61,059 nt of DNA from Deltaproteobacteria bacterium RIFOXYD12_FULL_57_12 (GTDB taxonomy: Bacteria; Desulfobacterota; Desulfobulbia; Desulfobulbales; BM004), in assembly GCA_001799275.1 (NCBI GenBank), contig MGTE01000042.1:64199-125257 (forward strand), given 5' to 3'. Every line of letters begins with the position of its first letter. Within the stretch, counting starts at the first letter, position 1. The notes under the pieces were generated by a model. It searched no databases. It was not told the DNA's origin and saw nothing but the letters and a program-made list of their open reading frames with translations. This document shows positions 3,455-29,467 of the stretch, in pieces. Position numbers and translations under genes: made by a program.

Positions 3455-5145
3455 GGCTTTTCCCGCGGTTTTGGCTTGGACGGAATTCCTGGCTGCCGTG
3501 GCGCCGCGGCCAGAGTATCGTTGACAATCGCCTGGGCTTCCTCCTGGATGCGGTGCAAATGCTCAACTCCCCGGAAGCTCTCCGCATAGATCTTGTAGAT
3601 ATCCTCGGTCCCGGACGGTCGCGCCGCGAACCAGCCGTTCTCGGCAACCACCTTCAAGCCGCCGATGGGCGCGTTGTTGCCCGGGGCGCGGGTGAGGATG
3701 GCCTGGATTTTTTCGCCTGCCAGTTCAGTGAGCGTAACCTGTTCGGGTGAAAGTTTCGCCAACAGCTTCTTCTGCTCCGGGTTGGCCGGCGCCTCGATGC
3801 GGTCGTAAAGCGGTTCTCCGAATTCGCGCGTGAGTTCCCGGTAGAGCTCGCCGGGATCGCGGCCCATCCGGGCGGTGATCTCTGCCGCGAGCAAAGCCGG
3901 GATAATACCATCTTTGTCCGTCGTCCAGACGCTGCCATCCAGACGAGTAAAGGCGGCCCCGGCACTTTCTTCGCCACCAAAGCCAAGCGAACCATCGAGC
4001 AGGCCATCGACAAACCATTTGAAGCCAACCGGCACCTCATAGAGTTTGCGGCCAAGCTTGGCGGTGACGCGATCAATCATCCGGCTGCTCGCCACCGTCT
4101 TGCCGACCGCTGCTTCCTTGCGCCATTGCGGCCGGTGTTGGAAGAGGTAGAAGATGGCGACGGAGAGGTAATGGTTGGGCGGCAGCAATCCCATGCTGCG
4201 GGTGACGATTCCGTGCCGGTCATGGTCGGTATCGCAGGCGAAGGAAAGGTCAAAGCGGTCCTTCATCCCTATCAATCGTTGCATCGCATAGGGTGAAGAT
4301 GGGTCCATCCGTATCTGACCATCCCAATCCATTGTCATGAAACGAAAGGTCGGATCGACGGCCTCGTTGACAACAGTGAGGTTCAAGCCGTAGCGTTCGG
4401 CAATCGGCTGCCAATAGTGGACCCCGGCGCCGCCGAGCGGATCGACTCCCAGGTTGAGCTTCGCGCCGCGAATGGCGTCCAGATCGAGCACATTGGCGAG
4501 ATCAGCAATGTACGTATTGAGATAATCGTGCTGGTGGGTGGTGGAGGCGCGAAGCGCTTTCTCGAAAGAAAGCCTTTTCACACCGAGAAGGCCATTTTCG
4601 AGAAACTCGTTGGCCTTCGCCTCGATCCAGCAGGTGATAACGGCTTCCGCAGGCCCGCCGTTCGGGGGATTGTATTTGAACCCGCCATCATGGGGCGGAT
4701 TGTGTGACGGCGTGATGACGATGCCATCGGCAAGCCCGGTCGTGCGGCCGCGGTTGTAGGTAAGAATCGCATGGGAAACGACAGGGGTCGGGGTATATTC
4801 GTCCGCTGCCGCGATCATGACTTCCACCCCGTTTGCCGCCAGCACCTCAAGCGCGCTGGCATGCGCCGGCACGGAAAGGGCATGGGTGTCCATGCCGAGA
4901 AACAGCGGGCCATCGATTTTCTGCTGCTCACGGTACAGGCAAATGGCCTGACTGATGGCGAGGATATGCCGTTCATTGAAGGCCTTTTCGAAGGAGGAAC
5001 CTCGATGCCCCGAGGTGCCGAAGGCAACCTGCTGGCCCGGCACTGAAGGGTCGGGCGTCTCGGTATAATAGGCAGTGACGAGTCTGGGTACGTTCACCAG
5101 CATCGGTGCCTCGGCCGGCTTTCCTGCAACAGGACTTATTGTCAT
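3451..5145 (-). CDS. pgm: Phosphoglucomutase (alpha-D-glucose-specific)
   Basis: Interconverts glucose 1-phosphate and glucose 6-phosphate. The protein carries FGTSGHRGS near the N-terminus, the phosphoserine loop TPSHNPPHDGG, the metal-binding CDTDHDRHG segment and the sugar-binding GGEESAGA loop, all typical of the E. coli Pgm type. I chose the ATG at 5145 because the product then begins MTISPVAGKPAE, aligning with known Pgm N-termini. An in-frame ATG at 5181 would add 12 residues, and neither start has a strong Shine-Dalgarno sequence. It is co-directional with trkA (about 60 bp upstream of the chosen start) and overlaps glgP by 4 bp. Confidence 0.94.
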   Translation of the reverse strand: MTISPVAGKPAEAPMLVNVPRLVTAYYTETPDPSVPGQQVAFGTSGHRGSSFEKAFNERHILAISQAICLYREQQKIDGPLFLGMDTHALSVPAHASALEVLAANGVEVMIAAADEYTPTPVVSHAILTYNRGRTTGLADGIVITPSHNPPHDGGFKYNPPNGGPAEAVITCWIEAKANEFLENGLLGVKRLSFEKALRASTTHQHDYLNTYIADLANVLDLDAIRGAKLNLGVDPLGGAGVHYWQPIAERYGLNLTVVNEAVDPTFRFMTMDWDGQIRMDPSSPYAMQRLIGMKDRFDLSFACDTDHDRHGIVTRSMGLLPPNHYLSVAIFYLFQHRPQWRKEAAVGKTVASSRMIDRVTAKLGRKLYEVPVGFKWFVDGLLDGSLGFGGEESAGAAFTRLDGSVWTTDKDGIIPALLAAEITARMGRDPGELYRELTREFGEPLYDRIEAPANPEQKKLLAKLSPEQVTLTELAGEKIQAILTRAPGNNAPIGGLKVVAENGWFAARPSGTEDIYKIYAESFRGVEHLHRIQEEAQAIVNDTLAAAPRQPGIPSKPKPREKP

Positions 5146-5203
5146 GGCTTTCTCAATCAGTAAGTTCACCCCGCGCATCATTCATGCTGGCATGGCCAAC
5201 CAT

Positions 5204-5896
5204 CTAAGCGTTCTTCTTTGCGCCCGCATTCGCCGGCTCTTCCGGCGCTTGTTTCGGCTGCCAACGTTCCTGCAACGCGGGCATGTTTTTGCTGTGCGTG
5301 AGGATCACCACCTCGTCACCCAGGCGGAATGTTGTTTCTTCATCGGCATGTGCAAACTTGCCATCCCGGTAATAGCAGATGACCCTGGCGCCGGCGGGCA
5401 ATTTCATATCCCTGGCCGCGACCGCGTCCTCCTCTTTTACAATCAAGGTAAAAAAGCGGGCCTCGTCCTTGATGATCGTGGAAAGCTCGACGTTTTCGCC
5501 GCCCCTGACCATGTCTTCCAGATAACGACTGATGGTGCGGGAGGGGATAATCGTGTCCTTCAGCCCCAGTTCATGGCAGATGCCCTCGAACTGCGGATCG
5601 CCGATGCTCGTCACGATGCGGCTGAAACCGAGGGTTCGGCCGACCAGACTGGCAATGACGTTCGCCTGGTCGTTGTCGGCAAGACAAAACAGGAAATCGG
5701 TCTGCCCGGGATTGACTTCGCGCAAAATGTTCGGCTGGCTGCCATCGCCCAGCAGGAAGCTGCAGTCCATCTCTTCGGACAATGCATCGATCCTGGCCTT
5801 GTCAGTCTCGATGATGACGACATCATGATTCTTTTTGATGAGCGCCCTGGCTGTTTCAATACTCACTTTTCCGGCTCCGACAAAAACAATTCTCAT
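5204..5896 (-). CDS. trkA: TrkA/KtrA-like potassium uptake regulatory subunit
   Basis: Cytoplasmic RCK-type gating subunit of a Trk/Ktr potassium transporter. At about 230 residues it is the half-size form with one Rossmann RCK_N domain (begins MRIVFVGAGKVS; nucleotide-binding strand end IIETD; LLGDGS; FCLADNDQ) followed by a TrkA_C-type domain (LPAGARVICYYRDGK, LGDEVVILTH). The glycine motif reads GAGKVS, so the third glycine of GxGxxG is replaced by serine. The ATG at 5896 was chosen over 5923 because GGAGGG lies 4 bp upstream and the Rossmann fold starts there. It overlaps the trkH stop by 4 bp. Confidence 0.9.
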   Translation of the reverse strand: MRIVFVGAGKVSIETARALIKKNHDVVIIETDKARIDALSEEMDCSFLLGDGSQPNILREVNPGQTDFLFCLADNDQANVIASLVGRTLGFSRIVTSIGDPQFEGICHELGLKDTIIPSRTISRYLEDMVRGGENVELSTIIKDEARFFTLIVKEEDAVAARDMKLPAGARVICYYRDGKFAHADEETTFRLGDEVVILTHSKNMPALQERWQPKQAPEEPANAGAKKNA

Positions 5897-7359
5897 GTTC
5901 CCTCCATTCTTCTGCCAAACCACGTCCCTGGATAGAGCACCACCAGCCAGGCGATGATTTCAAGTCTTCCCGCCAGCATGTCAATACACAAAATCCCCTT
6001 GAGCAGGGCGGGCAACGTTGCACTGGTCAGCCCGACGGAAAGCCCCGCCGTTGCCGTTGCCGACACCACTTCGAACAAGGAGTCGAGGGAACTGTACCCC
6101 ATTGCCACAAACGGCAGCCAGGACAGCGCGATGACGGCAACGAACAGCAAGATGAGCAGCAGGGCCGCGTGGATTTCTTCGCCCTGCAGGCGGCGGCCGG
6201 CCAGCCGGGGCTCGATGACGGCGTGTTTCGGCAGGCAGCTCCGCAGCAGGATCAGCCGCAGCACGCTCGCTGCGATCAACAATCGCAACAACTTGAAGCC
6301 GCCGGCGGTCGATCCGGTGCCGCCGCCCACCAGCATCGAAAAAATCAGGATCAGCTTCGAACCCGGATCAAGCTGCCCGCACGGCATCGAGGCAAAACCC
6401 GCGGTGCTCTGCGCGGATACGGCGAGCAGGGGCGCGTGATGGAGGACCTGGGGCCACGCCATGCCGGCGTTCAGTCGCATGGCAACTCCCACCGCCAGGG
6501 CAACGACCAGGGCAGCGATGACCACGGCCTGGATCTGCAGAAAGTCCACGGCAACGCGCCGCTTCTCCTTGAACATTCGGTACCAGAAGGTCAGCGGTAT
6601 CGCACCGGCGAGGCAGAGCAAGGTAATCCACACCTGGGCGGGCCAGTCTAACGTCGCGAGGCTGCCGTCATGCGGGGCAAAGCTCCCGGTTGAGACCGCC
6701 GCAAACGTGTACAGCACCGCCTCGAAAAAACCAACCCCCACCGCCAGGGAACCAATGATACCCAGGGCGGTCAATACGCCATAGACTTTCAGGACTTGCC
6801 GCGCATGGGCCCGGGTGCCGCCGACCAGATCGTCGCTTTCGGTATCGGTGACAGCCAGGCCCTTCGCCACCAGACCCTGTTGCATCACGAGCGCCAGTGA
6901 AAATACCACAATGCCCAGCCCCCCGTACCACTGCATCCAGGCCCGGGCGAAAAGAAAGGTCGGCGGCACGCCAGCAAGCGTTGCCTTCGTGGATAGGCCC
7001 GTGGTCGTCACACCGGAGACGGCTTCGAAGAGGGCATCAAGAAAGCCCAACCCCGAGGCCATCATCGGGTAGGACATCACCAGCGGCGTGAAGAGAAACA
7101 TCAGCGCCACCAGCACCATGCCTTCATTGGCCTGCACCCCGGCAGGAGCCCGCAGCCGGGCCAGGCCGGCCCCCAAGGCGGCGAGCCCGCCGGTCACCAT
7201 GCCATACCGCAGGCTGATAGAGGTGTCGCCAAAGATCACCGACATCGCCAACGGCACCAGGGTCAGTGCGGCGAGCACCAGGCACAGTTGTCCGAAATAC
7301 TTGCAGACCACACGGAACCGGACAGCGTACCTGAGTTCGGCTGCCTGTTTAGCCACCAA
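5893..7359 (-). CDS. trkH: TrkH/KtrB-like potassium uptake channel subunit
   Basis: Integral membrane K+ translocating subunit of 488 residues with many hydrophobic segments. The four degenerate selectivity-filter loops of the TrkH/KtrB superfamily can be seen: SGVTTTGLS, AAVSTGSFAP, QSTAGFASMP and ATATAGLSVG. Its start overlaps the end of atpG by 11 bp and its stop overlaps trkA, so ATPase and K+ uptake genes are translationally chained. Because a Trk system uses the electrochemical gradient, its fusion to an ion-pumping ATPase operon suggests the pump energises K+ uptake; that is inference from context. Confidence 0.93.
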   Translation of the reverse strand: MVAKQAAELRYAVRFRVVCKYFGQLCLVLAALTLVPLAMSVIFGDTSISLRYGMVTGGLAALGAGLARLRAPAGVQANEGMVLVALMFLFTPLVMSYPMMASGLGFLDALFEAVSGVTTTGLSTKATLAGVPPTFLFARAWMQWYGGLGIVVFSLALVMQQGLVAKGLAVTDTESDDLVGGTRAHARQVLKVYGVLTALGIIGSLAVGVGFFEAVLYTFAAVSTGSFAPHDGSLATLDWPAQVWITLLCLAGAIPLTFWYRMFKEKRRVAVDFLQIQAVVIAALVVALAVGVAMRLNAGMAWPQVLHHAPLLAVSAQSTAGFASMPCGQLDPGSKLILIFSMLVGGGTGSTAGGFKLLRLLIAASVLRLILLRSCLPKHAVIEPRLAGRRLQGEEIHAALLLILLFVAVIALSWLPFVAMGYSSLDSLFEVVSATATAGLSVGLTSATLPALLKGILCIDMLAGRLEIIAWLVVLYPGTWFGRRMEGT

Positions 7360-8395
7360 CGGCCTCCTTCACGCTCAACGATTCGTACCCGGCAATGACC
7401 TCGAACAATTCTTCATCAATGGTGCTCTGCCGCAGGCGATGGAAGGTCCGGTTCAGGTCCTCCAGCAGTTCGTCGATGTTTTTCTCGGCGCGCTGCATTG
7501 CCGCCAGACGGCTGGCGTTCTCGCTGGCCAGCGACTCGGCGCAGGCCTTGAACAGAGAAACAAAAAGATATTCGCGGATGAGTGCCTGCAGGGTCGCTTC
7601 GCCATCCACCAGGATCTCGGGCAGGTTACTGGTTGGCCAGCGGACTTCGGTGAATTCGCGGCGCCATTTTTCGTCAAGCGGCAGCAACCGCTGACTGACG
7701 GGCTCATAAATCGAACCGGACATGGGGCGGTTGTGAAAAAGGAAAACCTGTCCGACCTCGCCCTTTTGTTGAGGCCCTTCGAACTCGGTGAGGATCCGAC
7801 CGATGAGCGGCGTGATAGCGGTAACCGAATTCGGCACCGCGAACACGCCCTGCGGCGGAAGACCAGCATCCTGCAGGCGCGAGTGAAGACGCTCGCCAAC
7901 CGCCCATATTTTTTTCTCTCCCGGCAGGGCGCCAAGTGCATCCACGGTGAAATCGGTCAGCTCCTCATTGAATTTGCCGACCAGGCCCTGGTCCGAACCG
8001 AAAACAACGGCGCCAACCGTTTTTTTCCCCATTCGTTCCTGCCCCTCCGGGTCGACGGCCAGGGATGGCCTAGTGCCGGGCGAGCCAGGGATGGCGGAAG
8101 CCCGGTCGACGGCCAGGGATGGCCTAGTGCCGGGCGAGCCATGGAGGGCGGAAGCCCGGCCGACGGCCAGGGATGGCCTAGTGCCGGGCGAGCCAGGGAG
8201 GGCTGAAGCCCTGTCTTGCCGGAAGAAGGCAGCTAAGCCCAATTGCACAGTGCGATGGTAATCCGCCAGGGAGCGTACCGCGTTCTCATACTGGCCAATA
8301 TTTGACGCGGCCAGGGCCTTCATGGTCCGGACCACGGATCCGAGTTTTCCAGCGCCATCCATCTTGCGGCGTAAATTTCCCAGCGTCTCGCTCAT
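7349..8395 (-). CDS. atpG: N-ATPase gamma subunit with three in-frame repeat insertions
   Basis: Central-stalk subunit of the F1 sector. The N-terminal helix ([14 protein letters not shown]...[13 protein letters not shown]), the middle [14 protein letters not shown] and the C-terminal helix ([21 protein letters not shown]) are standard. At 348 residues it is about 54 longer than expected; the excess is exactly three 18-residue units ([15 protein letters not shown] and variants, about residues 64-117) encoded by a 54-bp DNA repeat at 8051-8212. Without them the protein is about 294 residues, a normal gamma length. The insertions lie between the N-terminal helix and the Rossmann-like domain, probably in a surface loop. 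It overlaps the atpA stop by 4 bp. Confidence 0.93.
8051..8212 (-). repeat. 54-bp palindromic element, three tandem in-frame copies within atpG
   Basis: Units at 8051-8104, 8105-8158 and 8159-8212 follow each other with an exact 54-bp period and differ at only a few bases. Each contains two potential stems: GGCCA/TGGCC around GGGA, and GCCGGGC...GCCCGGC around an 18-base loop. A length of 54 = 18 codons keeps the host frame, and several of the six frames across the unit are open. A fourth copy lies in atpA at 9547-9600. I saw no copies elsewhere in the window. Confidence 0.93.
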
Positions 8396-9993
8396 GGTTC
8401 TTTTTGAGAGCCTGCTTGAAATGGCTTCAGTGCCTTGCCGGCGACCTGCAGAACTGCGTCGCGGTCCTCATCCGTCAACTTGTCGGCCGATATAAAACGG
8501 CGGCGAACTTCCTCGGGAATTGCAGCGGCGGCTGCGCGCAGGGCTCCTTCGGCGTCAGGCATCCTGTCGAGGGGTACGGGGTCCAGAAGCCCGGCGAGCA
8601 AGGCCAGCAGCACGGTGATTTGCTCTGGCACGGATACCGGGGCGAATTCCGGCTGTTTAAGACAGGCGCGGATGCGCTGCCCATGGGAGATGATTTTGCG
8701 GGTATGTTCGTCAAGCCGGGCCCCGAACCGGGCAAAGGTTTCCAACTCCTCGAACTGTGCGTAATCAAGTTTGAGGGTCCCGGCCACGGCGCGGTATGCA
8801 GCCAGTTGCGCCTTGCCGCCGACTCGCGAAACCGATTTGCCGACATCAACGGCGGGCAGGACACCCAGCTCGAACAAAGTCGGCGAGAGATAAATCTGCC
8901 CGTCGGTAATGGAAATGAGATTGGTTGGAATGTAGGCGGCGATATTCTGTGCCTCGGTCTCGATGATCGGCAGCGCGGTGAGCGAGCCGCCGCCAAGTTC
9001 GGCGCGCAAATGCGTTGCCCGCTCCAGGAGCCGCGAATGGATGTAGAAGATGTCGCCGGGAAAGGCTTCGCGGCCAGGGGGGCGACGCAGCAGCAGGGAG
9101 AGTTCGCGGTAGGATCGGGCGTGGTGGGTGAGATCGTCATAAACGATGAGCACGTCGCGGCCCTGCTCCATGAAAAACTCGGCAATGCTGGTAGCGACGT
9201 ACGGCGCGATATAGGTGAGGCCCGGCGGATCGTTGCCCTCGGTGACAACGACGATGGTGTACTCCATGGCGCCTTTTTCGCCCAGATCGGCAACAACCTT
9301 GGCCACGGCCGAGGCCCGCTGGCCGATGGCGCAATAGACGCAAACCATGTTCCGGTCGCGCTGGTTCAGGATGGTGTCGATGGCAATGGCGGTCTTGCCG
9401 GTTTGCCGGTCGCCGAGAATCAACTCGCGTTGGCCGCGGCCGATGGGAATCAGCGCATCGATGACTTTGATCCCGGTCTGCAGCGGCATGGTGACCGGCG
9501 CGCGGTCCATGATGGGCGTTGCATCCCGTTCGATGGGCAAACGCTGGGCGACGGCCAGGGATGGCCTAGTGCCGGGCGAGCCAGGGAGGGCGGAAGTCCG
9601 GCCGTAGGCCACCGGGCCGTTGTCATCGAGCGGCCGACCGAGCGGGTCGATGACGCGCCCCAGCAAGCCATCGCCCACGGCCACATCCATGACCCGGCCC
9701 GTACGTTCAACTTCATCTCCCGTGTGCAGGTGCTGGTATTCGCCCAGCAGCACGACGCCGATATCGTCCTCATCAATATTGAAGGCGATGCCGAGCACCT
9801 CGCCGGGGAACTTCACCAGCTCCTCGAAGCCCACGCCGGGCAGACCGGCAACCCTGGCAATGCCGGTGGAGACGGTCATGATGGCGCCCACCTCCCGCGG
9901 CCGCAGTTGGGGCGTGAAGGCTTCCCGCGCCTGATGTATTCCGGCAAAGGCGCGGTCGAAAACATTTCGGAGGTCCTCTGGTTGCATGTTCAT
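8392..9993 (-). CDS. atpA: N-ATPase alpha subunit with one in-frame repeat insertion
   Basis: Non-catalytic nucleotide-binding subunit of F1. Visible features: beta-barrel start [19 protein letters not shown], Walker [41 protein letters not shown], and a C-terminal helical domain. A copy of the 54-bp element (9547-9600) adds 18 residues just before the nucleotide-binding domain; without it the length (about 515) is normal. I use the ATG at 9993 ([10 protein letters not shown]). An extension to 10062 would translate part of an upstream repeat hairpin and is unlikely; the ATG at 9987 is an alternative. No strong Shine-Dalgarno is visible. Confidence 0.93.
9547..9600 (-). repeat. 54-bp palindromic element, single copy within atpA
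   Basis: Same unit as the triplet in atpG (GATGGCCTAGTGCCGGGCGA core on the plus strand), in the same orientation and the same reading frame, encoding [15 protein letters not shown] in alpha. It interrupts the segment between the beta-barrel and the nucleotide-binding domain. Confidence 0.92.
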
Positions 9994-10050
9994 TGGTCGT
10001 AACTCAATGCCGTTAACGTAAGGTCTGTGAGGTGTTAAAAGAGAATATCG

Positions 10051-10121
10051 AATGTCGAACAAGGAATGTCGAATTTCGAAGTTTTTTTACTTCTACGGTT
10101 CGAAATTCCTTGTTCGACATT
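10051..10121. repeat. Long inverted repeat between atpF and atpA
   Basis: A perfect 17-bp inverted repeat (AATGTCGAACAAGGAAT at 10051-10067 and its complement at 10105-10121), with inner arms TTTCGAA/TTCGAAA at 10074-10080 and 10099-10105, lies in the roughly 190-bp gap between the atpF stop and the atpA start. In RNA it would form a long stem within the operon transcript. The AT-rich, repeated GTCGAA/FDIRYSL-type composition resembles mobile intergenic repeats rather than a terminator (no U-tract). Confidence 0.8.
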
Positions 10122-10184
10122 CTGCGGTTCGTTTTTCGCAATGGCTAGTTACCTGAGTGGTTACCATTGGCTCTTGGCTACAGT

Positions 10185-10949
10185 TTATCTTTCCCTTTCA
10201 GCAAGCAGCCCGTCGACGCCATGTTTCAGCGATACCAGATAATCCGCGATGCTCCACGCCAGCTTGTGTCCATTCGTGGTCAGCTCGATGCCGGCGATCA
10301 GGTCTGGCGAGGTCTCGAAACGGATCGGCGTTTCCAGGTCCAGAGTTTCCCGGATCGCATCTTCAACCGCGGCACTTTGCGTTGAAGAGAGCTCAAAGGT
10401 GGTGCGAACGGTCACGGGGCTCACCGACGCCTTGAGTCCCGTGGTCAGCAGTGCCTTTTCCGCCGCGGCCAATTCGCTTAACCGGCGGACAAAGACGGCA
10501 ACCATGCGCTCTTCCAGATTCGCCCCGGCGAGATCCGTCAGCGTCTTGCGGGCGATGGCAAATACCTCCTGCCGGGTCCGGCGGCTGATCTCCTGCCATA
10601 AGTTATGCTCATCATTTCGAAGCGTTTCCTGCCGTTTGGCAAGCAAGGCCGCGGCGGCCTGGCGCGCTTCGTCGAGGAGTTTTTCTCGTTCGGCCTGTGC
10701 CTCGTCCGTTGCTTTGCTGAAGAGCGCCTTACGTTGTTGGTCAAACTCCTCGTTTTTGTGTTGAAATTCGTTGCGTTCCTGCAGGGCTTCGGCCTTTTTC
10801 GCGTCGGCGTCCGCCAGTTCCGTGGCGATGCGCTTTTCCCGCGCGTCGATGGCGTTGAGAATCGGTTTGTACAGGAAGCGTTTCAGCAACCAAACCAGAA
10901 TGAGAAAGTTGAGGGCCTGGGCTCCGACCGTGAACCAATCGATGAGCAT
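10185..10949 (-). CDS. atpF: N-ATPase long b subunit (b with delta-like C-terminus)
   Basis: Peripheral stalk subunit of 254 residues, much longer than a normal b (about 160). One N-terminal membrane span (ALNFLILVWLLKRFLYKPI) is followed by a long charged coiled coil (about residues 35-150) and a C-terminal part that resembles delta (SVSPVTVRTTFELSSTQ, IAGIELTTNGHKLAWSI). N-type ATPase operons lack a separate delta gene, and none is present here, so the stretched b presumably replaces it. It starts 4 bp after the atpE stop. Confidence 0.9.
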   Translation of the reverse strand: MLIDWFTVGAQALNFLILVWLLKRFLYKPILNAIDAREKRIATELADADAKKAEALQERNEFQHKNEEFDQQRKALFSKATDEAQAEREKLLDEARQAAAALLAKRQETLRNDEHNLWQEISRRTRQEVFAIARKTLTDLAGANLEERMVAVFVRRLSELAAAEKALLTTGLKASVSPVTVRTTFELSSTQSAAVEDAIRETLDLETPIRFETSPDLIAGIELTTNGHKLAWSIADYLVSLKHGVDGLLAERER

Positions 10950-10953
10950 GATT

Positions 10954-11235
10954 TTACTTCCCCGCCGCCTGGGCGATGACGTGGTTCCAGAACGGGTTGG
11001 CGAAGATGAGAATCATCGACACGACAAAGCAGTAGATGGCCGTGGACTCGATCATTGCCAGCCCCACGAACAGCGTCCGGGTGATGGTGGCGGAGGCATC
11101 GGGCTGCTGGGCCAGCGAACTCAGCGCCGTCGCCACTGCCTTCCCTTCCGCCAGCGCCGGCCCCATGGTGCCGAAACCGGTGGTGATGCCGGCGATAACA
11201 ATTGATGCCACCGCGATAACTGTCATGCTATCCAT
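10954..11235 (-). CDS. atpE: N-ATPase c subunit, two-carboxylate ion site
   Basis: Rotor-ring proteolipid of 93 residues: two membrane helices joined by the polar loop AQQPDA. The essential carboxylate is Glu63 in AMIESTAIY; a second carboxylate, Glu30, lies in the first helix (GPALAEGKAV). The Q at the Na+-ligand position of classical Na+ F-ATPases is proline here, while ESTAIY is retained. Two-carboxylate c subunits occur in N-ATPases, and one such ring has been reported as H+-specific, so the coupling ion cannot be settled from sequence. The ATG at 11235 has AAGGAG 6 bp upstream; an upstream in-frame codon at 11277 would begin inside the hairpin and is rejected. Confidence 0.94.
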   Translation of the reverse strand: MDSMTVIAVASIVIAGITTGFGTMGPALAEGKAVATALSSLAQQPDASATITRTLFVGLAMIESTAIYCFVVSMILIFANPFWNHVIAQAAGK

Positions 11236-11260
11236 AGGAACTCCTTTTGTTAGGTTGTTT

Positions 11261-11299
11261 AGTCTGTAGCGCCGCACGCCGCGCGCGGCGCTACAGACT
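11261..11299 (-). promoter_or_regulatory. Strong hairpin between atpB and atpE
   Basis: A perfect 15-bp inverted repeat (AGTCTGTAGCGCCGC at 11261-11275 and its complement at 11285-11299, 9-base loop) overlaps the atpB stop codon and ends about 25 bp before the atpE start. As no U-tract follows, it is more likely an RNA processing or stability element than a terminator. The c subunit must be made in large excess over a, so a stabilising hairpin at this point makes sense, but this is inference. Confidence 0.75.
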
Positions 11300-11993
11300 A
11301 TCCATCTGAGTCCGGCTCAGGCCTGGGCGTTTTAACGCGCGCTGCGGCCGCGATGTAAACCGCAGCCAGAATACTGAAGATGTAGGCCTGCACCATGCCG
11401 GTGAGCAGACCGAGCATCGCCATGACGATCGGAAAAAGGAAAGGGGTGATGGTGAGCAGGATGCCGATGATCATCGTCCCGCTCATCATGTTGCCGAACA
11501 GTCGTACCGCCAACGCCAGCGTCCGTGAGATTTCGCTGATGATATTAAACGGCAGCATGATGAAGGTCGGCTCCATATAGGACTTGAAGTAGCTGCCAAC
11601 GCCCTGCTCCTCGATGCCGAAGAGCGGCACGGCCACAAACACGCACAGGGCGAGGGCCGCCGTGGTCGAGAGCGAGCCGGTCGGCGGCTCGTAACCGGGA
11701 ATAACGGTGCTGAGGCTGGCGCTGGCGACAAACAGGAAGAGGGTGCCCAGAAAACCGAGATATTTCCGTGGCTGAGGCAAACCAACTTCTTCAATTTGCT
11801 TTTCGATGCCGGTGACGACAATTTCCAGCAGGTTCTGCCAGCGGGAACGGTTCAGGTCCCGGGAAAGTTTGTGCGTGATGCGTATTGAACCGGCAGTCAG
11901 CACCAGCATCAGTCCCCAGGTGAACACGACCGTGGCGTTCAGTTTAATAAAACCGTGTTGCCAGAAGATGATCTCGTCGGGACTAAGCCGCAT
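11298..11993 (-). CDS. atpB: N-ATPase a subunit
   Basis: Stator half-channel subunit of Fo, 231 residues with several membrane helices. The conserved arginine helix is visible as SRTLALAVRLFGNMMSG, and the last helix as GLLTGMVQAYIFSILAAVYI. The ATG at 11993 (MRLSPDEIIFW) has AGAGG about 7 bp upstream; the same frame is open for another 100 codons upstream but that stretch is the antisense-like reading of atpR and has no a-subunit character. It overlaps the end of atpR by 11 bp. Confidence 0.92.
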   Translation of the reverse strand: MRLSPDEIIFWQHGFIKLNATVVFTWGLMLVLTAGSIRITHKLSRDLNRSRWQNLLEIVVTGIEKQIEEVGLPQPRKYLGFLGTLFLFVASASLSTVIPGYEPPTGSLSTTAALALCVFVAVPLFGIEEQGVGSYFKSYMEPTFIMLPFNIISEISRTLALAVRLFGNMMSGTMIIGILLTITPFLFPIVMAMLGLLTGMVQAYIFSILAAVYIAAAARVKTPRPEPDSDG

Positions 11994-12297
11994 GGCCGAC
12001 CTCTTTCGCTTGCGGGTTCCGGTGTTCGGCCGGCGGGCCGAAAAGTCGGGTGACGATCTGGCGGGCCATGGCAAATCCAAGCAGGCATAGCAGCAACCGC
12101 TGCCAATGTCCATTGGCGATAACATAAAATCCGGCCAGGGCAAGAATCGTTCGCAACAGCAGACTGCCGAAGAACCAGCGGGCCGGCTGCTGTGACGACA
12201 GGCCCTTCCGGACTGTCCACCAGAGGCCGCCGAAGAACATTGCACCGAGCAGTCCTCCCGCCAACCATGCCAGCACCAGGGGTATTGTTTCATGCAT
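11983..12297 (-). CDS. atpR: N-ATPase accessory subunit AtpR
   Basis: Small membrane protein of 104 residues with three hydrophobic segments (IPLVLAWLAGGLLGAMFFGG; FGSLLLRTILALAGFYVI; RLLLCLLGFAMARQIV). AtpR is a hallmark of N-type ATPase operons, encoded between atpQ and atpB as here; a role with AtpQ in c-ring assembly or ion supply has been proposed. The ATG at 12297 is preceded by AGGAGG and overlaps the atpQ stop region by 8 bp, while a longer frame to 12453 is only a shadow of atpQ. Confidence 0.87.
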   Translation of the reverse strand: MHETIPLVLAWLAGGLLGAMFFGGLWWTVRKGLSSQQPARWFFGSLLLRTILALAGFYVIANGHWQRLLLCLLGFAMARQIVTRLFGPPAEHRNPQAKEVGHAA

Positions 12298-12614
12298 CGT
12301 TATCCTCCTGTTCATCGCGCATTGCCTTGTCTTCCTTATCCACCCAGTGCCAGGCATTGAAACAGCCGATGGCGAGCCCGGCCACCAGAAGCGCCAGGGT
12401 CCAGGAGTGGTTGCCCGGATGGTGCTTGTCCAGCCAGAGGCCAAGTGCCGCACCGAGCAGCGTCGGAATCGCCACCGACCAGCCGATAAGCCCCATCATG
12501 CCGAGGCCGAACCAGACACCCGCCGAGGAATTGCGCCGCGCCTTGAGTTTGCGCGCCGCCTTGGCACCTACCTGGTGGCCGAACGTGGTCCGGCCTTTCG
12601 TGGTTTTTGGCGTT

Positions 12615-12622
<8 letters not shown>
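12290..12622 (-). CDS. atpQ: N-ATPase accessory subunit AtpQ (AtpI/AtpZ-like)
   Basis: A 110-residue protein with a basic N-terminus (KAARKLKARRN) and two membrane helices (FGLGMMGLIGWSVAIPTLLG; WTLALLVAGLAIGCFNAWHW), of the F0F1-ATPase accessory AtpI/AtpZ type. Position directly after atpC and before atpR matches the N-ATPase order D-C-Q-R-B-E-F-A-G. It overlaps atpC by 8 bp and atpR by 8 bp. Confidence 0.88.
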
Positions 12623-14466
<1,844 letters not shown>

Positions 14467-14485: not shown

Positions 14486-14833
14486 TTATGATTTCAGATC
14501 CTTTTTCAGCCGGTCGAATTCGTCTTTGTTGATTTCGCCTTCGGAGTCGGTTTTTGATTTCTCGTAAAAAATTATTGCACCTGGTTCCTCAAGAAGGCTC
14601 ATCGCCCCCCGCAGCACCTTGAACCCATCGGACTTGCAATGGATTTCAAAGTCCTTTCGGGTCTCCCATTCTTCAAGCAGGCAGAGGATATTGTCATCCC
14701 CTGTGCCCTGAAAGAAATCACAACGCCCGCAGCCCGTTTCCGTCCTGATGGGGCCGAGCAGCGAGGTAATCGTCTGGGACAGTTCCTTCCTTTTCATGGA
14801 CGGAACCTTCATATGCATAATGACCAGGATCAT
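14486..14833 (-). CDS. ABM-fold monooxygenase-like protein (YgiN type)
   Basis: Small cytoplasmic ferredoxin-like-fold protein (115 residues) of the antibiotic-biosynthesis-monooxygenase superfamily. Typical elements are the first strand MILVIMHMKVPSMKRKEL, the TSLLGPIRTETGCGRCDFF segment, CLLEEWETRKDFEIHCKS and a C-terminal helix extension rich in lysine. Cys residues at CGRC are unusual. It is the first gene downstream of a sigma-54 promoter whose predicted start (about 14836) leaves only 3 bases before this ATG; translation could be leaderless or begin at 14812 or 14797 (the last has GAAGG upstream). Substrate unknown. Confidence 0.75.
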   Translation of the reverse strand: MILVIMHMKVPSMKRKELSQTITSLLGPIRTETGCGRCDFFQGTGDDNILCLLEEWETRKDFEIHCKSDGFKVLRGAMSLLEEPGAIIFYEKSKTDSEGEINKDEFDRLKKDLKS

Positions 14834-14846
14834 AGGAAGAAAGCGA

Positions 14847-14862
14847 AGCAAGTGGTGTGCCG
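14847..14862 (-). promoter_or_regulatory. Sigma-54 promoter upstream of the ABM/N-ATPase run
   Basis: Read on the minus strand, CGGCACACCACTTGCT matches the -24/-12 consensus TGGCAC-N5-TTGCW with the invariant GG (14861-14860) and GC (14849-14848) at the correct 10-bp spacing; only the first T differs in the core. The predicted start point is about 14836. A 35-bp dyad lies 100-135 bp upstream, where enhancer-binding proteins act. Confidence 0.8.
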
Positions 14863-14962
14863 AAAACCAAAAAAAGACAAAAACTTGTTGGATAATAGAC
14901 TGTTAATAAAGTATGGAGTGAAGCGGTGAGAGTAGAAAGGAAGGCTGACAGGAGCTATCAGG

Positions 14963-14997
14963 CCTCAATATGTGGTGGACCCTCATGATATTGAGGG
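14963..14997. promoter_or_regulatory. Upstream activator dyad, copy 1
   Basis: A 35-bp sequence with arms CCTCAATAT and ATATTGAGG around a conserved core GGTGGACCCTCA. It is 30/35 identical to the copy at 19779-19813, and its left edge lies 103 bp from the promoter GG, against 104 bp for the other copy. It sits about 18 bp after the CheB-CheR stop, but no U-tract follows, so an operator is a better reading than a terminator. Confidence 0.75.
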
Positions 14998-15014
14998 ATG
15001 GGTGTTTTGAAAAA

Positions 15015-17729
15015 TTATTCTGCTTTCCGGCGGGCGGCATTCCTGGGCGCCGGGCGCCGTTTTCGTGCTCGATGTTCAAGGGCCGCATTCAATGTATTGA
15101 TTGCCGCCTCGGTTTTCTTGAGCGCGGTAATATCGTCAAAGGTGATCACCACCCCGTCGATCACATTGTTCACCGTGCGATAGGGCCGAATCCGCATTCG
15201 GTAGAAGGCGCCGTCCTTACTCCGCACCTCCTTTTCCTTTGTTCCAAGGTTCTGCAGCACGTCGAACGCATCCTCCGTCAGGTCCGTGTCAATCAAGGCG
15301 GTCGCAAAATGTTTGATGGGGCGGCCCGAATCGGTGGCTGACAAGGGGATGATCTCCACGGCTTTTGGCGTGAACCTTCTGACGCATAGTTCGAGATTGA
15401 GGAAAATAGTGGCGATCTGGGTACTGTCCAGCAGATTTTTCATGTCATCATTGGTCGTGGACCACTCGTCGATGCGGCTCTGCAACTCAGCATTGACCGT
15501 GGCGGCTTCCTCGTTCAGGGATTGCAGTTCCTCCTTGGAGGTTTCCAACTCTTCATTGGTGCTCTGCAACTCCTCGTTGGCGGATTGCAACTCTTCGTTG
15601 GAGGTTTCCAGCTCTTCGATGGTGAGTTGCAGACTTTCCCTGGAGCGCCGCAACTCCTGTTCGAGCCTCTCGACGTCGGTGTTCTTTGGCCGCGCCATTG
15701 TCTTTTTTGTGGCCTTGTTCCTGCTGGCGGGCGGCTCGTTTTCCTTAAAAATGACCATCATCAGGCCGCGCAAGGCTCTGGGCTCCAGAATCGGTTTCAC
15801 GGTCAAATCAATGGAGATATGGCTGTCGTTGTGCTCGATGGCTACCCTTTTACGAACACATTCCTGCTGGTTGGTCACGACTTCGCGGATTGCGGCTGCC
15901 AGGTCCATCTTGAGTCCCGGCCGCGCCATCTCCAGGATATTGACGCTGACTTTTCCGCTGGCCGGTTCCAGGTACCTGCCGGTGCGGCCATGCAGATAGA
16001 TGATGTTGTTCGTCTCGTCGATAACAACACAGGGAGGGGCGTCGACCTGTCTGAGAATCGATTCAACCAACTGGAAGGCGCTCAGCTCTTCCGCCCTTCT
16101 GATCGATTCGGGCTGAACCGGTCGCGCGTGCGCCGCCATTGCGGGAGCCGGGGGAAATTTTACCCCAGGCTGGGCGGCAGTCGGCCCGATGTTACGCCGG
16201 TAAATTTTCCATTTCTTGTCCAGCCTGACAAAGAGTTCATGGCCCTGGCCGATGGACTCCGAGGAGCCGAGAAAAAGAATGCCATCCGGCTTCAGACTAT
16301 AGTGGAAAACAGGTATGAGCCTCTTCTGCAATTCCGGGCCGAGGTAAATCATGAGATTACGGCAGCTGAGCAGGTCGAGCTTGGTAAACGGCGGGTCCCT
16401 GATAACACTCTGTACGGCAAAAACCAGCATTTCGCGGATCGATTTGTTAACCCGGTACTGATTATCCTCCTTGGAGAACCAGCGTTTCAGGCGTGCCGCG
16501 CTTACATCCCCGGCGATGCTGGCCGGAAAGATTCCGGTTCGAGCCGCATTGACGGCATTCTCGTCAATATCGGTGCTGAATATCTGAACGTTGATGTTGC
16601 GATTCAGATCCTCCATGACCTCCTGGAGGAGGATGGCAATGGAATAGGCCTCCTCGCCGCTGCTGCAGCCGGCAACCCAGACGCGCATGGTATAGCCGTC
16701 CGCCTTACCTGCCAGCAGTTCGGGCATGATTTTTTCTCGGAGTACCTCAAAAGCCTTGGCGTCGCGGAAAAAATTGGTCACCCCGATCAGCAGTTCCTGG
16801 AAGAGGATGTCGAGTTCAACCTCGCTTTTCTGGAGATAGAGGACATAATCCTCTACCGTATCGATCTGATGGACGTGCATTCTCCTTTCGATGCGCCGCA
16901 GGATCGTGTTTTTTTTGTAGAGGGAAAAATCGTGCCCGGTACGGGTACGCAGGAGGATACAGATTTTCTGCAGATTGTCGGGCATTCTCCCGTCATCGGC
17001 CAGCACCGTTGCCGTGGTTGGCTGGACCACGTGTCGGAGGTATTTGATCAGTTGTCCCGGCATTTCGGCGGGCGGCAGGATATAATCGGCAACTCCCGTG
17101 GCAATGGCGTTTCTCGGCATGCCGTCATACTTGGCGGATTGCTCGTCCTGTACCATCACCATGCCGGCCTCGCCCTTGATAGCTTTGACCCCCAGGGTGC
17201 CGTCGCTGCCGGTGCCGGAGAGAATGATAGCCACCGCATTTGGTCCCTGGTCCCGGGCCAGGGACCGGAGAAAGCGGTCAATCGGCAGATTGGCGCCGCG
17301 GGGCCGGCGCAACTCCATGAGCTGCAAGGTGCTGTTCAGGAGGGCGAGATCCTGATTGGGCGGGACGACATACACCGTGTTCGGTTCCAGCCGCATGCCG
17401 TCCTTGATCTGCAGGACCTGCATCCTGGTGCGCTTCTGGATCAGTTCGGGCATGATACTGATATGGGTTGGATCGAGATGAGGGACCAGAATAAAGGCAA
17501 GGCCCGCGTCAGCCGGCATGGCGGTAAAAAATGCCTCAAAGGCCTCCAGGCCGCCGGCCGAGGCGCCTATGCCGATAATCGGCAGTGTCGTCCGGGGCCG
17601 GGAGGTGCCTTCGGCATCGGGCGGCAGGGCCTTGGCTCCGGCTGTATCTTTCCGGGGCGCCGCCTTCCTTGTCCCGGCAGCCGTCCCGGAGGTATCGGTC
17701 TTGATTTTTTTCTCTTTTCTGGTGGTCAT
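15015..17729 (-). CDS. CheB-CheR-PAS fusion signalling protein
   Basis: A 904-residue cytoplasmic protein. Domains: CheB-type methylesterase (about 48-230; catalytic Ser57 in GIGASAGGLEA, His84 in PHLDP, Asp176 in SGTGSDGT), CheR-type methyltransferase (about 245-500; SAM segment VWVAGCSSGEEAYSIAI, FRD and CRNLMIYL motifs), a PAS-like linker, a heptad-rich coiled coil (repeated EELQS/NEEL, about 680-750), and a C-terminal PAS domain ending VVITFDDITALKKTE. It lacks the C-terminal kinase of longer relatives. Its start overlaps the PAS histidine kinase stop by 4 bp, so both are likely partners expressed from the sigma-54 promoter at 19662-19677. There are no chemoreceptors nearby, so a non-chemotaxis role is likely. 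Confidence 0.92.
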   Translation of the reverse strand: MTTRKEKKIKTDTSGTAAGTRKAAPRKDTAGAKALPPDAEGTSRPRTTLPIIGIGASAGGLEAFEAFFTAMPADAGLAFILVPHLDPTHISIMPELIQKRTRMQVLQIKDGMRLEPNTVYVVPPNQDLALLNSTLQLMELRRPRGANLPIDRFLRSLARDQGPNAVAIILSGTGSDGTLGVKAIKGEAGMVMVQDEQSAKYDGMPRNAIATGVADYILPPAEMPGQLIKYLRHVVQPTTATVLADDGRMPDNLQKICILLRTRTGHDFSLYKKNTILRRIERRMHVHQIDTVEDYVLYLQKSEVELDILFQELLIGVTNFFRDAKAFEVLREKIMPELLAGKADGYTMRVWVAGCSSGEEAYSIAILLQEVMEDLNRNINVQIFSTDIDENAVNAARTGIFPASIAGDVSAARLKRWFSKEDNQYRVNKSIREMLVFAVQSVIRDPPFTKLDLLSCRNLMIYLGPELQKRLIPVFHYSLKPDGILFLGSSESIGQGHELFVRLDKKWKIYRRNIGPTAAQPGVKFPPAPAMAAHARPVQPESIRRAEELSAFQLVESILRQVDAPPCVVIDETNNIIYLHGRTGRYLEPASGKVSVNILEMARPGLKMDLAAAIREVVTNQQECVRKRVAIEHNDSHISIDLTVKPILEPRALRGLMMVIFKENEPPASRNKATKKTMARPKNTDVERLEQELRRSRESLQLTIEELETSNEELQSANEELQSTNEELETSKEELQSLNEEAATVNAELQSRIDEWSTTNDDMKNLLDSTQIATIFLNLELCVRRFTPKAVEIIPLSATDSGRPIKHFATALIDTDLTEDAFDVLQNLGTKEKEVRSKDGAFYRMRIRPYRTVNNVIDGVVITFDDITALKKTEAAINTLNAALEHRARKRRPAPRNAARRKAE

Positions 17730-19432
17730 GGTTCAACTCCGGCAACTATTTTCCCAAGGGACTTTTTAAAATCTTTCTCTCGATACGGCTTCTGGAGTGC
17801 ATCAAGAAAACCATGCTCACGGTACTGCAACATAACCGGATCATTTGCATAGCCGCTGGCCACAATGGCTCTCACCCCCGGGTCGAGTTTCTTCAGACGC
17901 TTGATGGTTTCCGCACCCCCCAGACCTCCCTTGATGGTTAGATCAAGAATAACAGCTCCAAACGGCAAACCTGCTTGTTGGGCCTGCTTAAATTTTTGTA
18001 TGGCTTCTTCTCCGTCGCCTGCCGTCTCGACTTCATAGCCCGCTCCTTCGAGCATACGGCCGGCCAGTTCTCTGAGCATCCGCTCATCGTCCATGACCAG
18101 GATTTTTGTATTGGCAAGAAGGGACAGCCGAGGCTTCTCGTCATGCGTAACCACCGGCTTATCACTTGCCGGCAGACAGATTGTAAGCGTCGTGCCGCTG
18201 TCCGGCCGGGAGGCGACATCAATGGACCCGCCATGTTTCTTGATTATGGAATGGGCAATCGTCAGGCCCAGGCCCAGGCCTTTTTTCGGCCCCGGCTGTT
18301 TTGTTGAAAAATATGGATCAAATACCCGGGTAAGAATATCTTCCGGTATGCTTCCCCCTTGGTCGGTGATTGAAACCCTAATATACCTCGCATCCCGGCC
18401 GGCCGGAATTTTCCGGATTTTTCCAGAAACCGGCTCGACATTTTCAGCGCCAATCCGCACCACGCCTCCTTGCGGCATGGCCTCCTTGGCGTTGGTGAGC
18501 ACATTGCCGACAGCCAGGATCATCTGCCCGGCATCAACCTCGACAGGCCACAAACCGGCCGGCAGAGAATATTCCGGCTTCACATTGGAGCCGGCAAGAG
18601 AGAGACTCGCCGCGTCGGCAAGTAATGCCTCCAGGGAGGAGATTTTTTTTACTGGTCCGCCGCCTGATGAGAAGGTCAGAAACTTTTTTGCCAGGTCCGC
18701 GGCACTGAGACACGCATCTTTCGCAATCCGCAGTCTTTCGGAAACAGACAGGCCGGACGACATATCTTTCTCGGCCAGCTCAATATTCCCCATGATCACC
18801 GCGAGAAGGTTGTTGAAGTCATGGGCAATGCCGCCGGCCAACTGAGCCGTTGCTTCAAGCTTTTCAACATTGAGGATTTCAGCTTCCAGCCGCTTTGTTT
18901 CCGTGATGTCCTGCAGGGCTATACGTACGCGGATACCGTTGGTATCATTTTGTGCCATGGGAACACATTCCAGCCTGGCCCAGAACCAATTGCCATCCTT
19001 TCTCCGAATCCGCAGTTCGCACACCTTCCGGCTCTTCAGATCAATAAGTTCTCTGAAGTGTTTGTAGCAGATGTCCTGATCCTCAGGGACTATGAAGTTT
19101 GAGAAGGGTTGGTCGAAGAGCGTATTCCTTGCCGCGCCCAGCAGGTCGGCCAGGGTCAGATTGACTTCCACGATCAGATTCGTATCACTTACCGTGAGAT
19201 AGCCGACCGGCGCAAAATCATAGAGATCGACATACCGGTCGCGGGTGTCCACGAGTTCTTGCTGAACTTGGCGAAGTTCCTCGTTCTGCACTTCCAGTTC
19301 GATCTGGTGGGTACGGAGTTCATGAACCACCCGCCGGAGTTCCGTGTCGGAATCCTTTCTCGATGAGGATATCTCGGAGTCAATCCTCTCTTCCGCTTTC
19401 TTGCGTAAGTCATCAAGCTGCCGTTTGTCCAT
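17726..19432 (-). CDS. PAS histidine kinase with C-terminal receiver
   Basis: A 568-residue soluble hybrid kinase. An N-terminal coiled coil (ELEVQNEELRQVQQELVDTRD) precedes one PAS domain (about 65-185), then the phospho-acceptor box LAGGIAHDFNNLLAV, a HATPase domain (N box NVLTNAKEAMP, G boxes GLGLGLTIAHS) and a receiver (about 450-565) with acceptor Asp in VILDLTIKGG. No membrane segments, so it senses an internal cue. About 220 bp upstream lies a sigma-54 promoter. It is co-transcribed with the CheB-CheR protein (4-bp overlap). Confidence 0.92.
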   Translation of the reverse strand: MDKRQLDDLRKKAEERIDSEISSSRKDSDTELRRVVHELRTHQIELEVQNEELRQVQQELVDTRDRYVDLYDFAPVGYLTVSDTNLIVEVNLTLADLLGAARNTLFDQPFSNFIVPEDQDICYKHFRELIDLKSRKVCELRIRRKDGNWFWARLECVPMAQNDTNGIRVRIALQDITETKRLEAEILNVEKLEATAQLAGGIAHDFNNLLAVIMGNIELAEKDMSSGLSVSERLRIAKDACLSAADLAKKFLTFSSGGGPVKKISSLEALLADAASLSLAGSNVKPEYSLPAGLWPVEVDAGQMILAVGNVLTNAKEAMPQGGVVRIGAENVEPVSGKIRKIPAGRDARYIRVSITDQGGSIPEDILTRVFDPYFSTKQPGPKKGLGLGLTIAHSIIKKHGGSIDVASRPDSGTTLTICLPASDKPVVTHDEKPRLSLLANTKILVMDDERMLRELAGRMLEGAGYEVETAGDGEEAIQKFKQAQQAGLPFGAVILDLTIKGGLGGAETIKRLKKLDPGVRAIVASGYANDPVMLQYREHGFLDALQKPYREKDFKKSLGKIVAGVEP

Positions 19433-19661
19433 AATTTCCAGCCTACACTTTTATTTCATAAGAATACATATGGCTTTCGACAAAAGAGCATGCTGGCCGG
19501 AACGGGTTCGATGAACGAATCCATGTGGCTATACGGCATGCTGTTCCCGGAACGCACTCCTGCCCGCATCCCTGATCAATTTAGTACCTTAGAAATAATA
19601 TTCTGCGCGTTTTTGGCAGAAAATTATTTCGTGAAGGTACTTATCCCGTTTATCGGGGTTA

Positions 19662-19677
19662 GGCAAAAGGCATGCCA
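19662..19677 (-). promoter_or_regulatory. Sigma-54 promoter upstream of the PAS kinase operon
   Basis: On the minus strand, TGGCATGCCTTTTGCC has invariant GG (19676-19675) and GC (19664-19663) with the required 10-bp spacing and one mismatch in the -24 box. The predicted start is about 19651, giving a leader of about 220 bases before the ATG at 19432. The remaining 19433-19835 stretch holds only this promoter and the upstream dyad. Confidence 0.8.
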
Positions 19678-19778
19678 ACGAATATAAAAACGGGCCGGAA
19701 TTTTGATGAAGCCTTTAAAAGCACTGCAATGAGAGAAAGCGGAGAAATCAGGAAAGGGGGATGAGGGAAGCGGTTTAA

Positions 19779-19813
19779 CCTCAACATACGGTGGACCCTC
19801 ACAATATTGAGGG
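19779..19813. promoter_or_regulatory. Upstream activator dyad, copy 2
   Basis: 35-bp partner of the site at 14963-14997: arms CCTCAACAT/ATATTGAGG and the same core GGTGGACCCTCA. It lies 104 bp upstream of the promoter GG and about 23 bp downstream of the enhancer-binding protein gene, the obvious candidate for the protein that binds it. Confidence 0.75.
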
Positions 19814-21700: not shown

Positions 21701-21867
21701 TTGGTTGCCGTACCCAGAGGATCGCAAAGAAAAACGATTTTGCAAGGTAACAAGCAAGAGTAATGCCATTCGCGCATTAATAACCGGACTGGAAATTCTA
21801 AACAGTCAACTTGCATGCGGATAGAAGCGAGTTCACCTCATCTGTCACCCCTCATTACCTGGGGTTA

Positions 21868-28012: not shown

Positions 28013-29467
28013 TCAGACCCTCGGCTTTCTGCGCAGCTTGACTGGCAGGATGCCGAGCTGTTCCCGGTACTTGGCCACGGTGCGCCGGGCGACTTTAATG
28101 TTCTCTTCGGCGAATTGCTTGGCAATGGTGTTGTCGGTCAGTGGTTTCACCGGGTTTTCGTTTTTGATCATGTTGCGGATGCGGTCCCGGATGCTTTCGG
28201 AGGCCACGGAGTCGCCGCCCTTGGTGGAGGCGATGGCGGTGCTGAAGAAGTACTTCAGCTCGTAAATGCCCTGAGGAGTATGGACGTACTTGTTGGTGGT
28301 CACCCGGCTGACCGTTGATTCGTGCATGCCGATGTCCTCGGCCACGTCGCGCAGCACCAGCGGTCTGAGATGGGCAACGCCTTTTTCAAAAAATTCCTGC
28401 TGGAATTTCAGGAGGCTTTCAACCACTTTGTAGATCGTCCGCTGGCGTTGCTGGACGCTTTTAATCAGCCAGGCGGCATCCTTGAGTTTATCCTTGATAT
28501 AGCTCTTGGCCTCCGGAGTCATTCCCTCGTCACTGTTCAGGATTTCCTGATACAGCGGCGAGATCTGCAGCCGCGGCAGCCCCTCGTCGTTGAGCACGAT
28601 GAGATAGTCGTCCCCCACCTTATGAACATAGACGTCAGGAACAATGTAATGGGTTTCATCGTCGGAATAGAGCCGGCCCGGGAAGGGATCCAGCCTGGTG
28701 ATGATGTCGATCGCCGCCTGAACGCTCTTGGCCGAGCGGCCGGTGGCCTTGGAAATGGCGGCGTAGTTTCTGTTTTCCAGATGGTTCAGGTGATCCCGGA
28801 TGATGATTTCAGGTAACTGGTCGGCAAGCTCCAGCTTTTTCAGCTGCAGGAGTAAAGATTCCCGGACGTCGCGTGCCGCAACCCCGGCCGGATCCATGTC
28901 CTGAATTACGCCAATCGCTATCTGCGCCGTTTCCGCGCTGCACCCGATTTCCTTGATAATATCCTCTGTCGTGGCTTCGAGAAATCCGTGCCGGTTCAGA
29001 TTGCCGATCACGAAGAAACCCGCCTTTTTTTCTTCCTCGGTGAGGTTGGCATGGGCGAGTTGCCACTGGAGATGGGACTGAAGGTTGGGCTTTTTTGCGA
29101 CAAAATCGAGGCGGGTGGCCCGGTTCGGATCCGGCGTCTCCCGTGAAAAGGAGAAGCCGGGGTCATACTGGTTTGCGTAGTCGTCCCAGTTGATTTCCTG
29201 CATGGGCACCGGCGTTTCCATGGAAATCTCGCTCGGCCTTTCCGACTCCTTGAATTCTTCCTCGTTCGGCGGCAGGCTGTCCGGGCTGGTGAGCGTATCC
29301 GGGTCGGTGGTCAGTTCATCGAGCAGGGGGTTCTGTTCGATCTCCTGCCGCAGGGTCTGGGCGAGTTCCAGCCTGGAAAGCTGGAGCAACTTGATCGCCT
29401 GCTGCAGCTGCGGGGTCATGAGCAGCTGTTGCGTCAGTTTGAGCTGTTGCCGGAGTGCCAGTACCAT
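28013..29467 (-). CDS. rpoN: RNA polymerase sigma-54 factor
   Basis: Sigma-54, 484 residues. Region I is glutamine/leucine rich (LRQQLKLTQQLLMTPQLQQA), followed by an acidic region II, the core-binding region, the helix-turn-helix (LRDVAEDIGMHESTVSRVT) and the RpoN box ARRTVAKYR (about 460-468), which recognises the -24 element. The full set of elements suggests a working factor. It lies 58 bp downstream of lptB, the common lptA-lptB-rpoN layout. It would be the sigma factor used by the two -24/-12 promoters found in this window. Confidence 0.97.
   Translation of the reverse strand: MVLALRQQLKLTQQLLMTPQLQQAIKLLQLSRLELAQTLRQEIEQNPLLDELTTDPDTLTSPDSLPPNEEEFKESERPSEISMETPVPMQEINWDDYANQYDPGFSFSRETPDPNRATRLDFVAKKPNLQSHLQWQLAHANLTEEEKKAGFFVIGNLNRHGFLEATTEDIIKEIGCSAETAQIAIGVIQDMDPAGVAARDVRESLLLQLKKLELADQLPEIIIRDHLNHLENRNYAAISKATGRSAKSVQAAIDIITRLDPFPGRLYSDDETHYIVPDVYVHKVGDDYLIVLNDEGLPRLQISPLYQEILNSDEGMTPEAKSYIKDKLKDAAWLIKSVQQRQRTIYKVVESLLKFQQEFFEKGVAHLRPLVLRDVAEDIGMHESTVSRVTTNKYVHTPQGIYELKYFFSTAIASTKGGDSVASESIRDRIRNMIKNENPVKPLTDNTIAKQFAEENIKVARRTVAKYREQLGILPVKLRRKPRV

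Follow-up and report, generated by a model that had tools for sequence, protein, structure and literature searches.

Sigma-54-dependent regulons of the NtrC, NorR, FhlA, ZraR and PspF types share a −24/−12 promoter, activating sites about 100 bp upstream, and an activator that combines a GAFTGA-containing AAA+ domain with a Fis-type helix-turn-helix (HTH). The locus described here has the same design. The general stress regulons under RpoS in E. coli and sigma-B in Bacillus include CsbD, YtxH, DUF948, BON/OsmY-type and universal stress (Usp) products. The products found in this study overlap with these sets, but they are predicted to be driven by sigma-54 and an enhancer-binding protein (EBP) instead. 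The main text on the sigma-54 regulome of Desulfovibrio vulgaris reports 36 regulons, with motifs reconstructed for 33 EBPs, which are often encoded beside the promoters they control and most of whose sites are no farther away than about 100 nt; in one site that was tested, three half-sites are conserved, and individual EBPs are tied to K+ uptake and to stress of the general or the envelope kind (PMC4641369). According to the same text, the regulons mostly comprise 1–4 operons and the largest comprises 12, whereas at least nine promoters are found here. CsbD, RpoS and universal stress proteins go unmentioned in that main text, to which the comparison is confined, and a motif identical to the present one is conceivable among those reconstructed there (PMC4641369).

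The stretch of DNA analysed in this study (the window, 61,059 nt) belongs to Deltaproteobacteria bacterium RIFOXYD12_FULL_57_12 (GCA_001799275.1; 3.84 Mb in 126 contigs) and corresponds to positions 64199–125257 of contig MGTE01000042.1 (C42, 129 kb). A preliminary description of this DNA had placed two −24/−12 promoters on the minus strand, each preceded by a 35-bp dyad (14963–14997 and 19779–19813). Both promoter elements were confirmed and are the top two sigma-54-like elements of the window by consensus score. The dyads were found where they had been placed. The word "identical", used for them in its title, is an overstatement because they agree at only 30 of 35 positions. The distances of 103 and 104 bp given from dyad to promoter GG are within 1–2 nt of the 100 and 101 nt obtained here, where spacing is measured as the gap from the 34-bp dyad core to the first base of the 16-bp sigma-54 element. 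With up to 3 mismatches allowed, the dyad pattern has no occurrence in the window besides these two (sites A and B), and 100 dinucleotide shuffles yielded none. The pair is beyond chance expectation.

The pattern of the dyad arms was found at eight places in a search of the entire 3.84 Mb, and the reversed control gave none. A composite scan added a ninth, weaker site; its matrices were partly trained on the same sites that it recovers, and it gave no matches in 8 × 129 kb of Markov sequence. The genome thus contains at least nine sites, eight of which are on C42, all on the same strand and six of them outside the window, and one of which is on another contig. That two promoters share the site holds for A and B, but not as the full extent, as both are among at least nine target promoters. 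From the sequence comparisons below, we consider it probable that these sites serve as upstream activating sequences for a single, dedicated sigma-54 regulon under the EBP encoded next to site B, and probably also under its close copy.

Table 1. Coordinates of the sites, promoters and genes (window positions unless a contig is given).
Feature	Position	Strand	Remarks
Site A, putative upstream activating site	14963..14996	-	operator I CCTCAATATCATGAGG, operator II CCACCACATATTGAGG
Site B, putative upstream activating site	19779..19812	-	operator I CCTCAATATTGTGAGG, operator II CCACCGTATGTTGAGG; begins 23 nt past the EBP stop codon
Predicted sigma-54 promoter A	14847..14862	-	CGGCACACCACTTGCT; 100 nt after site A
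Predicted sigma-54 promoter B	19662..19677	-	TGGCATGCCTTTTGCC; 101 nt after site B
Arms-pattern sites	C42: 4641, 10179, 20872, 30589, 36662, 79161, 83977; C2:1866		79161 is site A; 83977 is site B
Ninth, weaker site	C42:62146		found by composite scan; matrices derived from all sites
ABM-domain protein, small	14486..14833	-	first gene of operon A; start uncertain (ATG 14833 or a later one)
N-type (alternate F1F0) ATPase: beta, epsilon, gene-1 protein, a, c, b, alpha, gamma	7349..14466	-	
TrkH and TrkA, cation (K+) uptake	5204..7359	-	
Phosphoglucomutase and alpha-glucan phosphorylase	911..5181	-	co-directional with operon A
Acetate kinase	C42:63867-65096		follows these two genes, just outside the window
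PAS - histidine kinase - receiver hybrid	17726..19432	-	first gene of operon B
CheB-CheR-PAS fusion	15015..17729	-	second gene of operon B; 67-78% identical in 7 relatives
EBP, 487 aa	19836..21299	-	truncated PAS-type N-terminus, sigma-54-interacting AAA+ with GAFTGA, Fis-type HTH
Second EBP copy (L162)	G000 C23:1-834		cut by the contig end; 93% identical over the C-terminal 278 aa
REC-AAA-Fis paralogue (L008)	C42:600-2156		at one edge of the EBP gene cluster, immediately after a REC-GGDEF gene
Third-best sigma-54-like element of the window	21753-21768	-	upstream of the EBP gene
rpoN (sigma-54)	28013..29467	-	6.7 kb from the EBP gene

The consensus across genomes is CCTCAATATATTGAGG-TT-CCACCAAATATTGAGG, also written CCTCAATATATTGAGG-TTCCACCAAATATTGAGG, and it lies mostly 98–99 nt upstream of the sigma-54 element in Desulfobacterota. 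The dyad sequence reported earlier stands, but its reading as a single 35-bp dyad does not, because the 34-bp site is better understood as a tandem pair of 16-bp palindromic operators with centres 18 bp apart. The upstream operator is near-perfect (mean 14.8/16), and the downstream one matches at 13.1/16 with a weaker left half. All half-sites are altered together in one distant genome (G248, CCTCCATATATGGAGG...ATATGGAGG), and such a concerted change is as expected of a protein operator. The spacer between site and promoter is also conserved and contains an A/T-rich block. Among the matches listed, IHF-like sequences (8 or 9 of 9 consensus positions) occur in 34 of 74 spacers versus about 11 in shuffles, roughly a threefold excess, and they start most often 25–26 nt before the promoter element. 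This is only suggestive of assistance by IHF at these promoters. A sister group of EBPs in four genomes (L195, L197, L198 and L199), which falls inside the EBP clade described below, has an altered recognition helix (GINASTLRARM), and the site after these EBPs is 2 bp longer between the operators.

A scan of the whole genome for the dyad relative to −24/−12 motifs, the check proposed with the preliminary description, agrees with it: all nine sites have a strong sigma-54 element 98–101 nt downstream. The core GG-N10-GC, near TGGCAC-N5-TTGC, is present in both window elements and at all nine sites. For all eight arms-pattern sites, an element scoring at least 19.3 is found at 99–101 nt on one strand only, and nothing comparable is found on the other strand. 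As the background of such elements on C42 is about 1e-4 per position, the chance probability per site is 6e-4, and that for eight of eight is about 2e-26 when the sites are taken as independent. The six strongest sigma-54 elements on C42 (at least 21 by the score used for this background estimate) all belong to a site.

The same spacing is found elsewhere. When the exact arms were searched for in 84,980 species genomes, at least 80 loci were obtained, mostly in Syntrophaceae, Smithellaceae and other Deltaproteobacteria; the matches in Bacteroidetes and Firmicutes, among those listed, are chance matches. For the public genomes, among the matches listed, 60 of 62 sites have their best sigma-54 element (score at least 18.5, either strand, within 250 nt) at 90–100 nt, including 48 with a distance of 98 or 99 nt, and the spacing peaks at 99 nt (36/74) and 98 nt (19/74). 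Again among the listed matches, an element at 94–103 nt accompanies 58 of 67 sites with the inner motif versus 0 of 13 arms-only matches that lack it (Fisher P=8e-8, computed for 58/9 vs 0/10). Three canonical sites (L055, L067 and L081) have no sigma-54 element where one is expected. Two spacings are unusual, namely 119 nt (L057 3717) and 90 nt (L054 2843), which differ from the usual 99 nt by roughly two extra helical turns and one missing turn, respectively.

The EBP matches Sigma54_activat (3.6e-71) and, at its C-terminus, the Fis-type HTH_8 (6.7e-9) of Pfam; Walker A, GAFTGA and Walker B are present in its AAA+ domain, and LDEIGE is found in the sequence. Its N-terminus has no Pfam match to a sensory domain; a Usp-like start is joined there to the latter portion of a PAS domain. 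The orthologues have longer N-termini (577–792 aa in total versus 487 aa). A deletion may have removed the sensor, or the region may be mis-assembled; signalling by this EBP may be altered because most of the PAS domain is lost relative to the orthologues. No activating site follows the stop codon of the second copy on contig C23. This copy and the REC-type paralogue could share the sites. The preliminary description had put rpoN about 7 kb away, in good agreement with its position in Table 1. A recognisable activating site was sought at the sigma-54-like element upstream of the EBP gene and was not found; there is therefore no support for the EBP regulating its own gene by way of this site.

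The earlier proposal that this EBP controls both promoters is well supported by three independent lines of comparison: adjacency, co-occurrence and a single clade. In 19 loci outside this genome, 10–34 nt separate the start of the site from the stop codon of a window-EBP orthologue that precedes it, and the orthologues placed directly before the same site are 60–80% identical to the window EBP. Among 243 genomes of the order, with sites called at up to 3 mismatches, the site is present in 10 of the 12 genomes with a full-length orthologue (this one included) versus 9 of the 231 others (P=3e-11). In the remaining two, G002 and G041, weaker sites adjoin the EBP or lie close to it, as found in a rescan applied only to genomes of the orthologue-bearing group. 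In a tree of 53 EBPs, all the site-adjacent proteins fall into one strongly supported clade of 36, and about 16 other EBPs of this genome fall outside it. Three site-bearing genomes (G008, G098 and G104) have no close EBP; their assemblies are fragmented.

The sites might instead be bound by another EBP, chiefly the REC-AAA-Fis paralogue, or by several EBPs that share a recognition helix, so that control would come from a two-component signal or from both inputs. The paralogue is 59% identical to the window EBP, its HTH is almost the same, and its gene belongs to the same cluster, with a site close by. Moreover, four site-bearing genomes without a full-length orthologue (G021, G047, G074 and G108) have the REC type only, and more distant EBPs of the wider clade adjoin a site in L096 and L101. 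However, REC-type relatives are found in many genomes of the order that lack the site, whereas the PAS-type orthologue predicts sites well, and adjacency to the site is overwhelmingly with PAS-type EBPs. We therefore regard this alternative as rather unlikely, though it deserves serious attention, and prefer control by the PAS-type EBP.

Two readings that require no activator were also weighed. Both window dyads are palindromic and have a stop codon no more than about 25 nt away, as would be the case for transcription terminators or mRNA hairpins of the upstream genes, with an incidental distance to the promoter. However, several copies of the site are not behind any stop codon, and the inner, non-palindromic part, which pairing would not need, is conserved as well. 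This reading was rejected as highly improbable because no T-run follows the dyads and the sigma-54 element keeps a constant distance of 98–101 nt in many genomes, among the matches listed. A dispersed, MITE-like repeat copied along with its promoter would account for the concentration of the nine copies on one contig and their common orientation there, but only site, promoter and distance have been retained, with divergence in the spacers and flanks, and the copies precede different genes and recur across families; such a repeat is scarcely credible.

If the sites are upstream activating sequences of the PAS-type EBP, the mechanism would be as follows. The EBP, and probably its C23 copy, would bind the two tandem 16-bp palindromic operators of each promoter, assemble on them and contact RNA polymerase-sigma-54 about 100 bp away by looping out DNA of almost constant length, possibly with help from bending of the conserved A/T-rich spacer. 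The AAA+ ATPase would then open the promoter, and operon B would return sensor kinases into the system. The set of EBP, histidine kinase and CheB/CheR genes is conserved side by side in 7 relatives.

The genes behind site A, from the ABM gene to the acetate kinase gene, are all co-directional and probably form one transcript. The alternate F1F0 subunits occur in one gene run, as in an N-type ATPase, with TIGR03305, TIGR03166, TIGR02230, TIGR03306, TIGR03322, TIGR03324 and TIGR03323 of NCBIfam above their cut-offs and the b subunit identified by Pfam. Compared with N-ATPase operons, this one is placed behind a sigma-54 promoter, with the ABM gene in front and the Trk and glucan-mobilising genes behind. 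The cellular functions of the N-ATPase are described as largely unexplored in one report (PMC5376962), and the proposed regulon would offer a route to its role. The other sites of the genome precede genes for DUF948, YtxH, CsbD, FtsH, a flavodiiron-like protein, Usp and phosphoketolase. From their gene families, these targets suggest a response to starvation or to salt or envelope stress. The small CsbD, YtxH, DUF948, Usp and ABM proteins, together with FtsH, would be the stress products; the N-type ATPase with Trk would serve Na+/K+ balance; and phosphorylase, phosphoglucomutase, phosphoketolase and acetate kinase would yield ATP from stored glucan. "Stress" is an interpretation because the downstream genes are mixed. 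We infer a clustered, patchily distributed regulon of a stress/energy type, and the gene mixture leaves room for other readings.

No RpoS was found above the curated cut-off in this genome, which is 90% complete (best match 247.7 versus 378.7 bits). If the proposed regulon is real, these anaerobes would run a broad stress response via sigma-54 and not via an alternative sigma-70-type factor, a route that needs an ATP-spending activator at every promoter, and about a dozen poorly understood small stress families would be tied to one activator. The operator is precise and testable, and the regulon would be common to many uncultured Syntrophaceae, Smithellaceae and other Desulfobacterota. The mechanism itself is an ordinary, textbook one. 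The regulon, the operator and the target set appear to be undescribed in the literature searched, where nothing matched the latter two: queries with the operator sequence gave only unrelated papers among those listed, a search for sigma-54 general stress in Deltaproteobacteria brought up D. vulgaris papers, and the available part of a 2025 sigma-54 survey contains no such regulon. The HTH clade of the window EBP was likewise not matched here to a characterised EBP.

The sites are found in a minority of genomes, namely 19 of 243 of the order (3 mismatches) and 12 of 217 of the phylum (2 mismatches), and cluster near the EBP in several relatives. The regulon is possibly portable. The window EBP is 78–79% identical to the EBPs of three genomes from other families (G020, G078 and G050), whose RpoN proteins are 55–61% identical, and 70–71% identical to that of G044 from the same family (RpoN 68%). 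As these identities disagree with simple vertical descent, transfer or old paralogy is suggested. The GC content of C42 shows no clear departure from that of the other contigs and thus gives no evidence for transfer, and a shallow look for integrase or base-composition evidence found none. The N-ATPase is laterally transferred according to the title of Dibrova et al. 2010 (PMC2881411, as cited in PMC11738941). A bolder and more doubtful proposal is a self-contained, horizontally moving stress-survival island of Desulfobacterota, with its own sigma-54 activator and operator, that replaces a response of the RpoS/sigma-B type and couples Na+/K+ balance to ATP from stored glucan via phosphoketolase and acetate kinase.

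Outside this genome, the proteins encoded most often downstream of the site are of the ABM (12 of the 98 scanned), BON (4), CsbD (4) and LTXXQ (3) families; transaldolase, acyl-CoA dehydrogenase and ice-binding-like proteins are also found there. In this genome, the first gene behind the site at C42:36662, followed by the phosphoketolase gene, encodes a 137-aa protein (L009 15614-16027 = C42:35614-36027) that has no Pfam or NCBIfam match and is 59–83% identical in four relatives.
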